Positions 9,398-16,152 of a stretch of DNA of 51,640 nt are shown piece by piece. Source of the DNA: Dysgonamonadaceae bacterium (lineage in GTDB: Bacteria; Bacteroidota; Bacteroidia; Bacteroidales; Dysgonomonadaceae); NCBI GenBank assembly GCA_031272205.1, contig JAISUH010000064.1, positions 1 through 51,640 on the forward strand. The letters run 5' to 3'. Within the stretch, counting starts at the first letter, position 1. Each line of letters starts with the position of its first letter. The position numbers and the translations under genes were made by a program. The notes under the pieces were generated by a model, which saw nothing but the letters and a program-made list of their open reading frames with translations, was not told the origin of the DNA and did no database searches.

Positions 9398-9402
9398 CAA
9401 CG

Positions 9403-9485
9403 TATTAATACGGGGGTGCCCAATTAACAGGGCTGAGATTATACCCAATGAACCTGATGCGGGTAATGCCGACGAAGGGAAAAAG
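9403..9485 (+). promoter_or_regulatory. TPP (THI-box) riboswitch aptamer
   Basis: The conserved thi-box blocks are all present in order: GGGGGTGCC at 9412-9420, GGGCTGAGATTATACCC at 9430-9446, TGAACCTGATGCGGGTAATG at 9449-9468, then CCGACGAAGGGA up to about 9480. The CUGAGA and ACCUGAU cores contact the pyrimidine and pyrophosphate parts of thiamine pyrophosphate. It precedes a TonB-dependent receptor and PnuT, a known arrangement for thiamine uptake in Bacteroidota. Exact ends are estimated. Confidence 0.95.
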
Positions 9486-9490
9486 GAAAA

Positions 9491-9527
9491 AAAGCTCGCA
9501 TCCGTATGCATGAGCTTTATTTTTTTG
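9491..9527 (+). terminator. Intrinsic terminator, expression platform of the TPP riboswitch
   Basis: AAAGCTC (9491-9497) pairs with GAGCTTT (9512-9518), with an inner GCAT/ATGC stem and a two-base bulge, followed at once by ATTTTTTT. Placed just after the aptamer, it implies transcriptional OFF control when thiamine pyrophosphate is bound. The remaining 9528-9622 is an untranslated leader in which I see no gene or further conserved element. Confidence 0.8.
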
Positions 9528-9622: not shown

Positions 9623-11869
9623 ATGAAAAAGGTATTTCTTTTATGCGCAGCGCTGATTATCTCCGGCGCAATTTCCATTTTCGGACAGGCGCAATCCGAC
9701 AGCGACAGTCTCAAAAACATCAAGCTCGAAGAGGTGGTGGTTTCCTCCACGCGAGCCGGCAAACAAGCGCCGATGGCGTACAGCAACTTATCGGGGGAGG
9801 CCATCGAAAAACAAAATTCGGGACAAGACATTCCCTATATTTTATTGCTGACGCCTTCGGTTACGAGCACCTCGGAGGCCGGGTCGGGAATCGGATACAC
9901 CGGATTCCGCATCCGCGGGACGGATGCTAACCGCATCAACATCACTGTCAATGGGATTCCGCTCAACGATTCGGAATCGCATGGCGTGTTCTTTGTCAAT
10001 ATGCCGGATTTTGCCTCATCGCTCTCGTCGATACAGGTGCAACGCGGCGTGGGTACATCCACGAACGGGTCGGCGGCGTTTGGCGCCAGCGTGAACATGC
10101 AGACCGAAAACGTGAGCCGTCAACCTTTCGCCGAAATCAGTTCGTCTTACGGCTCGTTCAACACCAACAAAAACACGATGAAAGCCGGTACCGGCCTTAT
10201 CGGGAACCACTTTGCCATCGAGGGGCGCTATTCGACCATCAATTCCGACGGATACATCGACCGCGCATCTGTGAACATGCGTTCCTATTACCTTGCGGCA
10301 GCCTGTTTTACCGAGAATACAGTGCTGAAGTTCATTACATTCGGGGGAAAAGAGAAGACCTATCAGGCATGGAACGGAGTCGATTTGGATTTGGTGCGGA
10401 AAGACCCCGTGCATTATTCGCGCACTTACAACGAGTTGGGTCAATATACTGACGATGAGGGTAATACTCAATATTATAACAACCAAACCGACAATTATAC
10501 GCAGACGCATTATCAGTTGCATGCCGTACATCAGTTATCGCCCGAGTTGAGCTTAAACGCGGCTTTGCATTACACCAAAGGAGTCGGATATTACGAGGAA
10601 TACAAAACCGGCAGGGTTTATGCAGAATACCTGCTGACTCCGGCGGTAGTAAACGGTGTAACATTGAAAAAAACCGACCTTGTGCGCCAAAAATGGCTCG
10701 ATAATCATTTTTACGGCGCTACCGCCGCCCTAAACTATTCTGCAAACCAATTCGGTTTGGTATTCGGTGGCGGAGCCAATAAATACGACGGGGAGCACTT
10801 CGGGAAAGTGTTGTGGGTGAGATACCCCAATCATTTCGACGCCGATAAGGACTGGTATCGGAACTCGTCGGTAAAAACAGACGCGAATACCTATTTGAAA
10901 CTCCATATAGAGCCGGTCGATAATCTGTTTTTGTACGCCGACGCACAATATCGATACATCAAATACGATATAGACGGTAAAGACGACAAATACGACGGGG
11001 ATACGCAGGCCATGCGCGACATCACGCAACAACACACGTTTTCGTTTTTTAATCCGAAAGCCGGAGCCACCTACCGTTTCGACACGAAAAACGAGATCTA
11101 TGGATCCCTCTCGATGGCCAACCGTGAGCCGAACCGCAATAATTACACCGATGCCGGCCCTAATGACCAACCCACAGCCGAACGTTTGTACGACACGGAA
11201 GCGGGCTATCGGTATCAATCTGGCGATGCAGGTTTCGGTCTGAACCTCTATTACATGAAGTATAAAGACCAGCTGATTCTAACCGGGAAAATCAGCGAGA
11301 TCGGCGAAGCTCTGACAACAAATATCCCCGACAGCTACCGCGCAGGAATCGAATTGACTGGAGCGTTGAAAATCAGTCCGATGCTGCGCTGGGACGGAAA
11401 CGTAACCTTCAGCCGGAACAAAATTAAGAATTTTGTGGAGCAAGATATCGATGAATACGATGCCGACTGGAATTGGACGGGTTCCCGTTCCAACGATTTG
11501 GGGACGACCGATATCTCCTATTCGCCGAACATCATCGCCAACAGTATCGTTACTTTCAATTACAAGGGGTTCGAAACGGCGCTGATGAGTCATTATGTCA
11601 GCCGCCAATACATCGACAACACGTCGGACAGAGACCGCAGTATCCCCGGCTATTTCGTTAATAACCTGAGGGGAAGTTACAGTTTCAAAGTCCCCAACGT
11701 GCGTGCCGTCGAATTGGGAATTTGGGTTAATAACCTTTTCAACGCGGAATATTCCTGCAACGGTTATAACTGGTACAGCTATTACCTTGGCGGAGAACGG
11801 GTGAACGAAAAACGCTATTTCCCGCAAGCCGGCACCAATGTACAGGCAAGCATGACGCTGAAATTTTAA
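9623..11869 (+). CDS. TonB-dependent outer membrane receptor, predicted thiamine importer
   Basis: The 748-residue protein has an N-terminal signal peptide (MKKVFLLCAALIISG), a likely TonB box (LEEVVVSST) near residue 35, and a plug domain with FRIRGTDANRINITVNGIPL and SIQVQRGVGTSTNGSAAFG. A long beta-barrel follows, ending in the terminal motif ASMTLKF. It lacks the N-terminal carboxypeptidase-like domain seen in SusC proteins, so it is an ordinary TonB receptor. The TPP riboswitch and terminator directly upstream, and PnuT downstream, point to thiamine or a thiamine derivative as substrate. This is the Omr1-type receptor described for Bacteroidota; the assignment rests on context, not on the protein alone. 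Confidence 0.92.
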   Translation: MKKVFLLCAALIISGAISIFGQAQSDSDSLKNIKLEEVVVSSTRAGKQAPMAYSNLSGEAIEKQNSGQDIPYILLLTPSVTSTSEAGSGIGYTGFRIRGTDANRINITVNGIPLNDSESHGVFFVNMPDFASSLSSIQVQRGVGTSTNGSAAFGASVNMQTENVSRQPFAEISSSYGSFNTNKNTMKAGTGLIGNHFAIEGRYSTINSDGYIDRASVNMRSYYLAAACFTENTVLKFITFGGKEKTYQAWNGVDLDLVRKDPVHYSRTYNELGQYTDDEGNTQYYNNQTDNYTQTHYQLHAVHQLSPELSLNAALHYTKGVGYYEEYKTGRVYAEYLLTPAVVNGVTLKKTDLVRQKWLDNHFYGATAALNYSANQFGLVFGGGANKYDGEHFGKVLWVRYPNHFDADKDWYRNSSVKTDANTYLKLHIEPVDNLFLYADAQYRYIKYDIDGKDDKYDGDTQAMRDITQQHTFSFFNPKAGATYRFDTKNEIYGSLSMANREPNRNNYTDAGPNDQPTAERLYDTEAGYRYQSGDAGFGLNLYYMKYKDQLILTGKISEIGEALTTNIPDSYRAGIELTGALKISPMLRWDGNVTFSRNKIKNFVEQDIDEYDADWNWTGSRSNDLGTTDISYSPNIIANSIVTFNYKGFETALMSHYVSRQYIDNTSDRDRSIPGYFVNNLRGSYSFKVPNVRAVELGIWVNNLFNAEYSCNGYNWYSYYLGGERVNEKRYFPQAGTNVQASMTLKF

Positions 11870-11872
11870 ATA

Positions 11873-11921
11873 CGAAGGATTGTCTCATGAATTTTGCGAT
11901 TGATGAGACAGCCTCTTTTTA
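11873..11921 (+). terminator. Hairpin with T-run between the receptor and pnuT
   Basis: TGTCTCAT at 11881-11888 pairs exactly with ATGAGACA at 11903-11910. Further pairing is possible inside (AA/TT after a G-G mismatch) and outside with wobble pairs, and CCTCTTTTT follows. It has the form of an intrinsic terminator yet lies inside an apparent two-gene operon, so it may lower pnuT expression relative to the receptor. It overlaps an alternative upstream ATG of pnuT at 11894. Confidence 0.65.
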
Positions 11922-11938
11922 CAAAAAACATCCGCAAA

Positions 11939-12508
11939 ATGGAAATCATCGAAATCGTCGGCGCCGTTATCGGGCTGCTCTATCTTTATTTGGAATACAA
12001 GGCCGATAAATGGCTCTGGCCGGTGGGCGTGCTGATGCCGCTGATATACGTCTATATTTTTTTTCACGCAAAATTTTACGCCGACATGGGCATCAATGTT
12101 TATTATTTCTTTGCGTCGGTTTACGGGTGGATAAAATGGACGAAAGCGTCGGGTGACGAAGCCGGAACGCCCATTTCGTCCATCCCAGCGAAAAAGATAA
12201 TCCCTATAGCCGTTGTTTTTGCGCTCATTTTCGCCTTTATTGCCCACATCCTTTTTCATTATACCGACAGCCCTGTGCCCATCGGCGACAGCCTGATTAC
12301 GGCGTTGAGCATCATTGCCATGTGGATGTTGGCCAACAAATACATCGAACAGTGGTGGGTGTGGATTGTAGTGAATGCAATTTCTTGCGGACTGTATTTC
12401 TGGAAAGACTTGAATTACACTGCGTTGCTGTTCGTTATTTATACTATTGTGCCTTTTTTCGGCTATTTCAAATGGAAAAAACTCATGAAAGAACAAACCG
12501 GCAAGTGA
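11939..12508 (+). CDS. pnuT: PnuC-family vitamin transporter, predicted thiamine transporter PnuT
   Basis: This is a small inner-membrane protein of about 189 residues with seven or eight hydrophobic segments. The start MEIIEIVGAVIGLLYLYLEY at 11939 has the usual N-terminus of PnuC homologues; the earlier in-frame ATG at 11894 would add residues from inside a terminator hairpin and is rejected. Other PnuC hallmarks are YFFASVYGWIKW mid-protein, and then NKYIEQWWVWIVVN and a C-terminal FGYFKWKK. PnuC relatives move vitamins by facilitated diffusion with trapping by phosphorylation. Position behind the TPP riboswitch and TonB receptor selects thiamine over nicotinamide riboside. No thiamine pyrophosphokinase gene, which often completes this operon, is in the window. 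Confidence 0.88.
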   Translation: MEIIEIVGAVIGLLYLYLEYKADKWLWPVGVLMPLIYVYIFFHAKFYADMGINVYYFFASVYGWIKWTKASGDEAGTPISSIPAKKIIPIAVVFALIFAFIAHILFHYTDSPVPIGDSLITALSIIAMWMLANKYIEQWWVWIVVNAISCGLYFWKDLNYTALLFVIYTIVPFFGYFKWKKLMKEQTGK

Positions 12509-12604: not shown

Positions 12605-12612
12605 TATATTTG
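12605..12612 (+). promoter_or_regulatory. -7 box (TATATTTG) for the ECF-type gene
   Basis: TATATTTG is an exact TAnnTTTG box 48 bases before the ATG at 12660, and separates the next unit from the thiamine operon. The -33 element is only a T-rich GTTTTTT stretch. Confidence 0.5.
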
Positions 12613-12659
12613 TGGGATATATTGGATATTTTCGAACCGTAATCAAAATAATTATCGTC

Positions 12660-13169
12660 ATGAATACTCCTGTAAAAAACTATTCGCTGAATTTAGCAAA
12701 TACAGACACCTATCTTTTTTCTGTTATTTTCGTTGCCGGAAATATATTGCTTCCGCAATTGACGCATCTCATCCCGCAAGGCGGATTGATATGGCTGCCC
12801 ATTTATTTTTTCACGCTTGTTGCGGCGTACAGATACGGCATTCATGTGGGCTTGCTCACCGCCGTGCTTTCGCCTTTGGCCAATCACTTGCTGTTTGGGA
12901 TGCCGCCTGCAGCCGCGCTGCCCATCATCATGACAAAATCGGTTCTCTTGGCTGTTGCCGCTTCAATAGCCGCCAAACGCTTCGGGATGACGTCGTTTTG
13001 GGGTATTTTGCTGACTGTATTGGCCTACCAACTCATCGGGACGAGTATCGAATGGGCTGTGGGAAAAGATTTCACTATGGCCGTGCAGGATTTCCGTATC
13101 GGGATTCCCGGAATAATCCTTCAATGGATAGGCGGATATTTTGTGTTGAGAGCTTTGGTTAAAATATAA
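12660..13169 (+). CDS. Predicted ECF transporter S component-like membrane protein
   Basis: The 169-residue protein has about six hydrophobic segments: SVIFVAGNILLPQLTHLI, a second beginning LIWLPIYFFTLVAAY, then segments around VGLLTAVLSPLANHLLFG, IIMTKSVLLAVAAS, GILLTVLAYQLIG and a C-terminal GYFVLRALV. Length, the short polar N-terminus and the loop-rich helix pattern fit a substrate-binding S component. The longer start at 12612 falls inside the -7 box and is rejected. An S component alone cannot drive uptake; the shared ATPase and T components must be elsewhere. It is followed 5 bases later by a phosphoribosyltransferase, hinting at a nucleobase-type substrate. The family assignment is by pattern and is moderate. 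Confidence 0.65.
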   Translation: MNTPVKNYSLNLANTDTYLFSVIFVAGNILLPQLTHLIPQGGLIWLPIYFFTLVAAYRYGIHVGLLTAVLSPLANHLLFGMPPAAALPIIMTKSVLLAVAASIAAKRFGMTSFWGILLTVLAYQLIGTSIEWAVGKDFTMAVQDFRIGIPGIILQWIGGYFVLRALVKI

Positions 13170-13646: not shown

Positions 13647-14588
13647 ATGGATAGACGAAATTTTTTGAAAGCTGTGGCCTTGTCGGGTGCAGCCTTCACC
13701 TCGATAAAAGAATCGGATGCGATGAATCTGCTGGTTCAATCGTTTCAAACGGCTCAAGCCACAGCCAAATACGATTTGGTTGCTATCATGGGCGGCGAAC
13801 CGGACGAAATGTACAAAAAAGCCATTGCAGAAATCGGAGGGATGAAAAACTTCATTAAGCCGGGCGACAAGGTAGTGGTGAAACCCAATATCGGATGGGA
13901 CAAAACGCCCGAATTGGCGGCAAATACCAACCCCAAGCTTGTGGAAGCCATTATCAAAGACTGTTTCTCGGCCGGAGCGAAAGAAGTTACGGTTTTCGAC
14001 CATACCTGCGATGACTGGCGGAAATGTTATGCCAACAGCGGAATAGAAGAGGCTGTGAAGGCGACAGGCGCAAAGCTCGTTCCTGCGAATGAGGAATCGT
14101 ATTATAAGCCGGTATCGCTGCCCCAAGGGAAAAGCTTAAAATCGGCAAAAGTGCATCAGGCCATTGTGGATGCCGACAAGTGGATCAACGTGCCCATCTT
14201 GAAAAGCCACGGTGGAGCCCAAATGACCATTTCCATGAAAAACTATATGGGAATCGTTTGGGACAGAGGCTATTTCCACGCCAATGACCTGCAGCAGTGC
14301 ATCGCCGATGTGTGCACTTATTCCAAACGTCCGGCGCTGAATATCGTGGATGCCTACCGCATCTTGAAAACCAGCGGCCCGCGTGGCCGTTCGGAAGCCG
14401 ATGTGGCTTTGGCCAAAGGTTTGTTCATCTCGCAAGATATCGTTGCGGTGGATACGGCCGCCGCCAATTTCTTTAACCAAGTGAGAGAGTTGCCGGTGGA
14501 CAGGGTAGGACATTTGGCCAAAGGACAGGAATTGGGCATCGGCACAATGGATCTGTCGAACTTGAATATCAAACGGATAAAAGTTTGA
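13647..14588 (+). CDS. DUF362 domain protein with Tat signal
   Basis: The protein has 313 residues from the ATG at 13647. It begins MDRRNFLKAVALSGAAFTS, a twin-arginine signal (RRNFLK followed by a moderately hydrophobic stretch), so it should be folded in the cytoplasm and exported. The rest matches DUF362: VVVKPNIGWDK near residue 75, VTVFDHTCDDW near 115, and WINVPILKSHGGAQMTISMKNYMGIVWDR near 180-205 in shorter blocks. Many DUF362 proteins carry ferredoxin clusters, but this one does not; the clusters are instead in the next gene, 28 bases downstream. An in-frame ATG at 13611 would precede the Tat motif by 12 residues and is less likely. The function of DUF362 is unknown; the pairing suggests an envelope redox role. 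Confidence 0.88.
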   Translation: MDRRNFLKAVALSGAAFTSIKESDAMNLLVQSFQTAQATAKYDLVAIMGGEPDEMYKKAIAEIGGMKNFIKPGDKVVVKPNIGWDKTPELAANTNPKLVEAIIKDCFSAGAKEVTVFDHTCDDWRKCYANSGIEEAVKATGAKLVPANEESYYKPVSLPQGKSLKSAKVHQAIVDADKWINVPILKSHGGAQMTISMKNYMGIVWDRGYFHANDLQQCIADVCTYSKRPALNIVDAYRILKTSGPRGRSEADVALAKGLFISQDIVAVDTAAANFFNQVRELPVDRVGHLAKGQELGIGTMDLSNLNIKRIKV

Positions 14589-14616: not shown

Positions 14617-16152
14617 ATGTTGAAAAAAATACGAATAGCTGTATCTGTCATTCTGTTTGCGCTGATTTCATGGCATTTCCTCGATTTCGCAGGATTGTTG
14701 CCCCAACAGTTGCACTGGCTCGAAAAGATACAGTTTATCCCTGCATTGCTGGCGGTTAATGTACTCATTATCATCGGATTGATATTGATGACGGCGATTT
14801 TGGGGCGGGTGTACTGCTCGTCCATTTGTCCGATGGGTGTTTATCAGGATATTGTGGCGTGGCTTTCCAAACGCTTTATCCGAAAGAAAAAATACACTTA
14901 CGGCAAAGCAAAAACCGTGTTGAGGTGGAGTTTTTTGGGACTGACTGTCGTTGCGTTTCTGTTCAATTTTTCTTTTTTGTTGGGTTTGCTCGACCCTTAC
15001 GGGGCCTACGGCCGCATGACCACCCATCTTTTCCGTCCGGCATATTTGGCGGGAAACAATCTGTTGGCCGCCATTTTCACGTCGTTTGACAATTTTACAT
15101 TTTATAAAACGGCCATTTACGGCCTGGGCGTTTTTTCAACGGCAGTATCTTTGGCGACGCTCGTGTGTATTGCTGTGCTGGCGTGGAAAAACGGCCGCAC
15201 CTATTGCAATACCGTTTGTCCGGCAGGTACGATACTTGGAACCATCAGCCGTATTTCGGTATTCAAAATCCGTTTCGTTGAAGAACGTTGCAACAAATGC
15301 GGCCTTTGTCGCATGAAATGCAAAGCATCGTGTATTGATTCAAACAAGCTGCAAATTGATTACAGCCGCTGCGTTACCTGCTTCAATTGCATCGAAATCT
15401 GTAACAGGGACGCAATGCAATACGCGCCAATGAAATTAAAAAAGCAGGAATCGTCTCTTGTCCTTCCAAGCGACTCCCCTCCGGTGAATGAAGCACGCCG
15501 GCGCTTTCTCTCGGCTTCGTTGTTGACAGGCCTTGCGGCAGGAAAAATGATAGCGCAAGAATCGTCCGACGGAATATTGCAAAAGAAAGCAGTGAAGCGT
15601 GAAACGCCGATTGCTCCTCCGGGAGCCGTCAGTTTTGACCGTTTACGCGATAAATGTATCTCGTGCCACCTTTGCGTGAGTAAATGCCCGTCGCACGTCA
15701 TCAAACCGGCCTTTTTAGAATACGGGCCGGGCGGGATGATGCAGCCGATACTCTATTTCGATCGCGGTTTTTGTAATTACGACTGCACCGTCTGCGGAGA
15801 GGTTTGCCCCACCGGGGCACTTGTTCCCTTAACCAAAGAAGAAAAGAACGCTACCCAAATGGGGCAGGTGCAATTTACTATGGCAAACTGCATCGTTTAT
15901 TACGATGAAACCAATTGCGGAGCTTGCTCCGAACATTGCCCCACGCAGGCCGTGAGCATGGTTTCCTACAAAGATTCGTTGACCATACCGCACATCGAAC
16001 CGACCATTTGTGTGGGTTGTGGTGGCTGCGAATACGTTTGCCCGGCCATCCCTCACAAAGCCATTTACGTGAAAGGGTTGAAATCGCAAAACACCATCGA
16101 AATCAAATTTGAAAAACAAAAGGACGTTGAAATAGAAGGCTTCGGATTTTAA
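14617..16152 (+). CDS. Membrane polyferredoxin, NapH-like domain joined to NapG-like ferredoxin domain
   Basis: The protein has 511 residues. The N-terminal 220 residues hold about four membrane segments and two NapH-type CxxxCP motifs (Cys67/71 and Cys197/201). Two ferredoxin motifs follow at Cys225-235 and Cys252-262. Then residues 294-310 contain a twin-arginine-like RRRFLSASLLTGLAAG segment, exactly as a Tat signal would look at the start of NapG. The last 170 residues hold four more cysteine groups: 347-357, 386-397, 425-441 and 465-475. The layout is that of NapH plus NapG in one chain, with room for about six [4Fe-4S] clusters. It probably passes electrons across the inner membrane, perhaps to the exported DUF362 protein encoded 28 bases upstream. 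No nitrate reductase or other terminal enzyme is nearby. Confidence 0.85.
   Translation: MLKKIRIAVSVILFALISWHFLDFAGLLPQQLHWLEKIQFIPALLAVNVLIIIGLILMTAILGRVYCSSICPMGVYQDIVAWLSKRFIRKKKYTYGKAKTVLRWSFLGLTVVAFLFNFSFLLGLLDPYGAYGRMTTHLFRPAYLAGNNLLAAIFTSFDNFTFYKTAIYGLGVFSTAVSLATLVCIAVLAWKNGRTYCNTVCPAGTILGTISRISVFKIRFVEERCNKCGLCRMKCKASCIDSNKLQIDYSRCVTCFNCIEICNRDAMQYAPMKLKKQESSLVLPSDSPPVNEARRRFLSASLLTGLAAGKMIAQESSDGILQKKAVKRETPIAPPGAVSFDRLRDKCISCHLCVSKCPSHVIKPAFLEYGPGGMMQPILYFDRGFCNYDCTVCGEVCPTGALVPLTKEEKNATQMGQVQFTMANCIVYYDETNCGACSEHCPTQAVSMVSYKDSLTIPHIEPTICVGCGGCEYVCPAIPHKAIYVKGLKSQNTIEIKFEKQKDVEIEGFGF

Follow-up and report, generated by a model that had tools for sequence, protein, structure and literature searches.

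The window analysed here is a stretch of 51,640 nucleotides from a Dysgonamonadaceae bacterium whose genome (2.33 Mb) is 82.8% complete. At positions 14617..16152 on the forward strand it carries a single open frame of 511 amino acids without an internal stop, whose two halves match the NapH and NapG families, respectively, and which has full-length homologues across Bacteroidota. Directly upstream, separated by 28 bp, lies a gene for a 313-residue DUF362 protein (13647..14588, forward strand; PF04015, E 7e-51) with a Tat signal of its own, MDRRNFLKAVALSG. This gene is preceded by one for a small membrane protein that is possibly ECF-S-like (12612..13169, forward strand) and was picked out by orthologue linkage. 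Further upstream, a TPP riboswitch (9402-9497; Rfam RF00059, 58.8 bits) is followed on its 3' side by a TonB-dependent receptor (9623-11869) and then by a PnuC-family transporter (11894-12508), which together resemble an operon for thiamine uptake that stops shortly upstream of the fusion gene's neighbourhood.

Hydropathy, charge distribution and a match to TIGR02163 define a NapH-like half comprising residues 1-285 (14617..15471). It contains two CxxxCP motifs located shortly C-terminal of the second and fourth transmembrane segments, C67-P72 (14815..14832) and C197-P202 (15205..15222); C67 and C71 of the former and C197, C201 and P202 of the latter are invariant in the homologue alignment. 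These are followed by two ferredoxin-type cysteine groups, C225-C239 and C252-C262 (15289..15402), which match Fer4 Pfam models, have invariant cysteines and are predicted to be cytoplasmic. The NapG-like half (residues 331-487; 15607..16077), defined by matches to NF007012 and TIGR00397 and by alignment with E. coli NapG, contains a PPGA motif and has four 4Fe-4S motifs formed by 16 cysteines (C347-357, C386-397, C425-441 and C465-475), predicted to be periplasmic. The whole chain has 30 cysteines, and every cysteine motif that an earlier note had read from the sequence in the NapH-type domain and after the Tat-like segment is present.

NCBIfam profiles matched residues 153-269 as NapH/MauN (E 5e-20), residues 290-485 as NapG (E 3e-18) and residues 312-484 as MauM/NapG (E 4e-17). 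All these scores are below the curated cut-offs (72 vs 213 bits for NapH TIGR02163, 64 vs 234 for NapH NF007013 and 66 vs 269 for NapG NF007012), indicating that the fusion is a relative rather than an equivalog of these proteins. The only PDB entries matched by sequence were polyferredoxins and NuoI-like proteins, most of these matches falling in the second half, and an AlphaFold model of the fusion computed with 36 relatives had a mean pLDDT of 42, too low for use.

Between the two halves lies the twin-arginine motif R294-R-R-F-L298 (15496..15510), which opens a Tat-like segment running through R295, R296, F297 and L298 to G309. The segment is one residue shorter than the 294-310 first proposed, but the motif is real and conserved. 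Among 89 distinct full-length Bacteroidota homologues, R295 is kept in all 89 and position 294 is K or R in all 89, while F297 occurs in 73 and L298 in 76; the linker flanking the motif varies in both length and sequence. This pattern indicates that the motif is not there by chance. All 89 have [K/R]-R-x-φ-φ followed by a hydrophobic stretch, so that a homologue lacking both, which would have counted against a signal, was not encountered. The RR pair of the earlier note needs a correction in that the twin position is KR in 62 of the 89 and RR in only 27, the window protein among the latter. In addition, EARRRFL of the fusion aligns with NGRRRFL near the start of E. coli K-12 NapG, and PPGA at 334-337 with the PPGA that begins the folded domain of E. 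coli NapG, indicating that the fusion junction is the Tat signal of a NapG. Of 61 relatives, 37 have a homologue of the fusion. Named genomes contributed 45 loci (the nearest in Proteiniphilum, Petrimonas and Dysgonomonas), and a sample of 296 Bacteroidota genomes yielded homologues in 30.

Four strong hydrophobic maxima precede R294 (residues 7-25, 44-62, 107-125 and 170-188), and the numbers of lysines plus arginines per loop are 3/1/10/3/19. By the positive-inside rule these charges place both ends of the NapH half in the cytoplasm. With four transmembrane segments, the twin-arginine motif would consequently be cytoplasmic, where TatC would read it. The predicted h-region after the arginines (residues 297-313; 15505..15555) is only weakly hydrophobic: over the homologues, the 15-residue Kyte-Doolittle maximum averages 1.56 in the Tat segment vs 2.86 in the second transmembrane segment. 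Weak hydrophobicity of the Tat-dependent segment is a reported property of dual-targeted proteins (PMC5449189). For Bacteroidota members, we found no topology, fractionation or spectroscopy data.

In one relative the same chain is divided between two genes. A DUF362 gene is followed there by a 299-residue NapH-like gene (locus L106, 1372-2271) and a 223-residue NapG-like gene (2264-2935 of that locus), the division falling exactly at the Tat signal. The NapG-like gene begins MDKSRREAIKKGFLLFIG, its start reading MDKSRREAIKK, and the two genes overlap at start and stop in ATGGATAA. The split may reflect a sequencing error, but such an overlap is typical of coupled genes. The predicted Tat motif is in the same position whether the halves are fused or split. 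The homology of the halves and this natural split at their junction bear out the original reading of the gene as a fusion of NapH and NapG.

The source genome encodes both TatA and TatC, on one contig. Among the 61 relatives, 36 of the 37 fusion-bearing genomes encode TatC vs 17 of the 24 that lack the fusion (Fisher p 0.005, a statistic that ignores kinship), and the sole fusion genome lacking TatC is 79% complete. Three relatives, all from a single family, have the fusion in one cluster with tatA, tatC and a gene for a Tat-signal aldo/keto reductase (L124, L125 and L126); L124 additionally contains a flavodoxin, a DUF1893 protein and an ECF-S-like membrane protein. The proposal of an internal Tat signal is upheld by its conservation, the topology rule, the presence of TatA and TatC, the linkage to tatAC and the natural split.

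A DUF362 gene neighbours the fusion at 81 of 89 distinct homologue loci, making the DUF362 protein its probable functional partner. Within this DUF362 family, R3, R4, F6 and L7 of the Tat motif are invariant, as are four cysteines (C106, C121, C218 and C223). The protein had no match in the PDB by sequence. Its structure model (mean pLDDT 66) had LarA lactate racemases as best Foldseek matches (E about 1e-5), with TM scores of only 0.3-0.44 and an rmsd often above 10, a hint of a LarA-like fold that agrees with the placement of DUF362 in Pfam clan CL0471 (PMC11770544). A literature search for DUF362 plus polyferredoxin retrieved no paper from the collection searched.

In a second clade, the place of DUF362 is taken by an aldo/keto reductase that has a Tat signal and ferredoxin motifs. 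In a tree of 73 proteins, the sequences paired with this reductase form one group (support 100/100) among those paired with DUF362. The source genome itself carries a second fusion of this clade on another contig (C18, 2026-3603), 41% identical to the first and adjoining an aldo/keto reductase (536-2029) that has a Tat motif, a lipobox-like sequence and ferredoxin motifs. The pairing of the fusion with partners bearing Tat signals suggests electron transfer, in one direction or the other, between it and an exported enzyme. Orthologues of the small membrane protein at 12612..13169 also cluster with tatAC and the second-clade fusion; the one in L124 has a weak match to PF12822, below the cut-off. 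A Parabacteroides distasonis plasmid record (NZ_OY725762.1) contains two adjacent pairs annotated as 4Fe-4S binding protein plus aldo/keto reductase.

Polyferredoxins with an internal Tat motif were identified by Tooke et al. (2017; PMC5449189), who described the polyferredoxin PFD of the delta-proteobacterium MLMS-1 (Q1NSB0) as a 'fusion of NapH with NapG' and used MBP and AmiA fusions to establish that its translocation, but not its membrane insertion, needs Tat and the twin arginines. The dual Sec-Tat NapH-NapG class is therefore already known, with Tat dependence published in 2017 for the same architecture, and the question raised in the earlier note, whether the C-terminal half is moved across the membrane, has been answered for a protein of that architecture. 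The window protein shares with PFD the fusion of NapH with NapG, the internal Tat motif before a last segment of low hydrophobicity and clusters predicted on both sides of the membrane. It also has the other features of the class, namely an even number of transmembrane segments before the motif with the N-terminus inside, a conserved [KR]R, and a C-terminal domain with four 4Fe-4S motifs, the assignment being made by described architecture. PFD differs from the Bacteroidota members in that its MBP fusion product is apparently uncut; the latter mostly have KR, carry a signal-peptidase-like A|Q site and have either DUF362 or a Tat-signal aldo/keto reductase as partner. The PFD members named in the text of that study are from chloroflexi, nitrospirae and euryarchaeota, not Bacteroidetes (PMC5449189). 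What is new here is a widespread Bacteroidota branch, mostly KR, that has partners of its own and a site at which it may be processed.

Two other systems offer partial parallels. E. coli K-12 NapG and NapH comprise the same two modules but are separate proteins encoded in the order G-H, whereas in the window fusion a single gene joins them in the order H-G, without nap genes. The actinobacterial three-transmembrane Rieske proteins (e.g. Sco2149) likewise have Sec-inserted helices followed by an internal twin-arginine motif and an FeS domain that Tat exports (PMC5449189), although their protein family and cofactor are unrelated to those of the fusion.

We infer that the window protein is a dual Sec-Tat inner-membrane polyferredoxin (probability roughly 0.85), in which Sec and Tat probably cooperate to place the two halves on opposite sides of the membrane. 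Sec would insert the four helices of the NapH half, leaving its two ends in the cytoplasm, but would not hold the weakly hydrophobic segment after R294-R-R-F-L, and Fe-S clusters would be loaded into the C-terminal half while it is still in the cytoplasm. TatC would then recognise the internal [K/R]R-x-F-L and the folded NapG-like half would cross the membrane. The protein could then relay electrons, in either direction, between the quinol pool or the cytoplasmic clusters and a partner exported by Tat, in this case the DUF362 protein, with which it would make contact. In most of the family, the exported half may then be cut free at the A|Q site. The occurrence of KR in most homologues counts against this dual Sec-Tat reading, as lysines replacing residues of the arginine pair are poorly tolerated by E. 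coli Tat signals (PMC7317946).

Alternatively, the RR segment might not be a signal at all, both halves remaining in the cytoplasm so that the chain is a membrane polyferredoxin facing the cytoplasm. The low-confidence AlphaFold model leaves room for such an arrangement, being uninformative, but we regard it as very improbable given the invariant R295 and the conserved F297 and L298 within an otherwise variable linker, the NapG type of the second half, the Tat signals of the neighbours, the tatAC linkage and the N-terminal Tat signal produced by the natural split. It is even less credible that the fusion belongs to a periplasmic nitrate reductase (Nap) system. NapH and NapG are indeed the closest named families, yet the scores fall far under the curated cut-offs, the neighbours are DUF362 or aldo/keto reductase genes rather than nap genes, and no TIGR01706 match, i.e. 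no NapA, was found in the source genome (82.8% complete), which makes a role in nitrate reduction unlikely. We therefore rejected membership of a Nap system.

The dual Sec-Tat reading can be extended to a polyprotein, in which signal peptidase I would cut at A313|Q314 (15553..15558) after export and yield a membrane NapH-like protein and a free periplasmic NapG-like protein. This predicted site consists of a conserved A and Q between variable neighbours: in the nearest 64 homologues, A313 is kept in 58/63 and Q314 in 55/63. Of the 89 distinct homologues, xx[AGS]|Q is present in 71 and an AxA-type site in another 10, but 8 of the DUF362 type lack a recognisable signal-peptidase site. In 264 kb of the source genome screened with a crude home-made signal-peptide filter, 19 of the 44 N-terminal signal peptides of non-lipoproteins have AQ immediately behind the hydrophobic core vs 4.8% of other 18-residue windows; the internal segment thus resembles the usual cleavable signal peptides of the lineage. 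The natural split at the same place also favours processing, as does one homologue (L091) with a lipobox-like LNSC at the end of its internal Tat segment, which suggests that its NapG half might become a lipoprotein. An FbcH-type precedent is the Bradyrhizobium cytochrome b/c1 polyprotein, which is cut by signal peptidase. On the other hand, residues 297-313 could simply remain as a fifth helix, and the published PFD-MBP fusion was retained in the membrane at about its full mass, so that this relative was not cut there (PMC5449189) and cleavage in the Bacteroidota branch would be a difference. On balance, we consider the polyprotein a tentative extension with somewhat less than even odds, and slightly more doubtful still the full scenario in which one gene would give rise to an electron carrier on each side of the membrane through a cleavable internal Tat signal and release by signal peptidase I.

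With these homologues, the few published Sec-Tat dual-targeted proteins are joined by a family found across Bacteroidota. The split and tatAC-linked versions make the hand-over from Sec to Tat testable, and the conserved A|Q site raises the question of whether cleavage of an internal Tat signal is possible. The consistent association of the fusion with a DUF362 protein of the LarA clan that bears a Tat signal offers a way into an uncharacterised redox pathway in the periplasm of common bacteria of guts and digesters.
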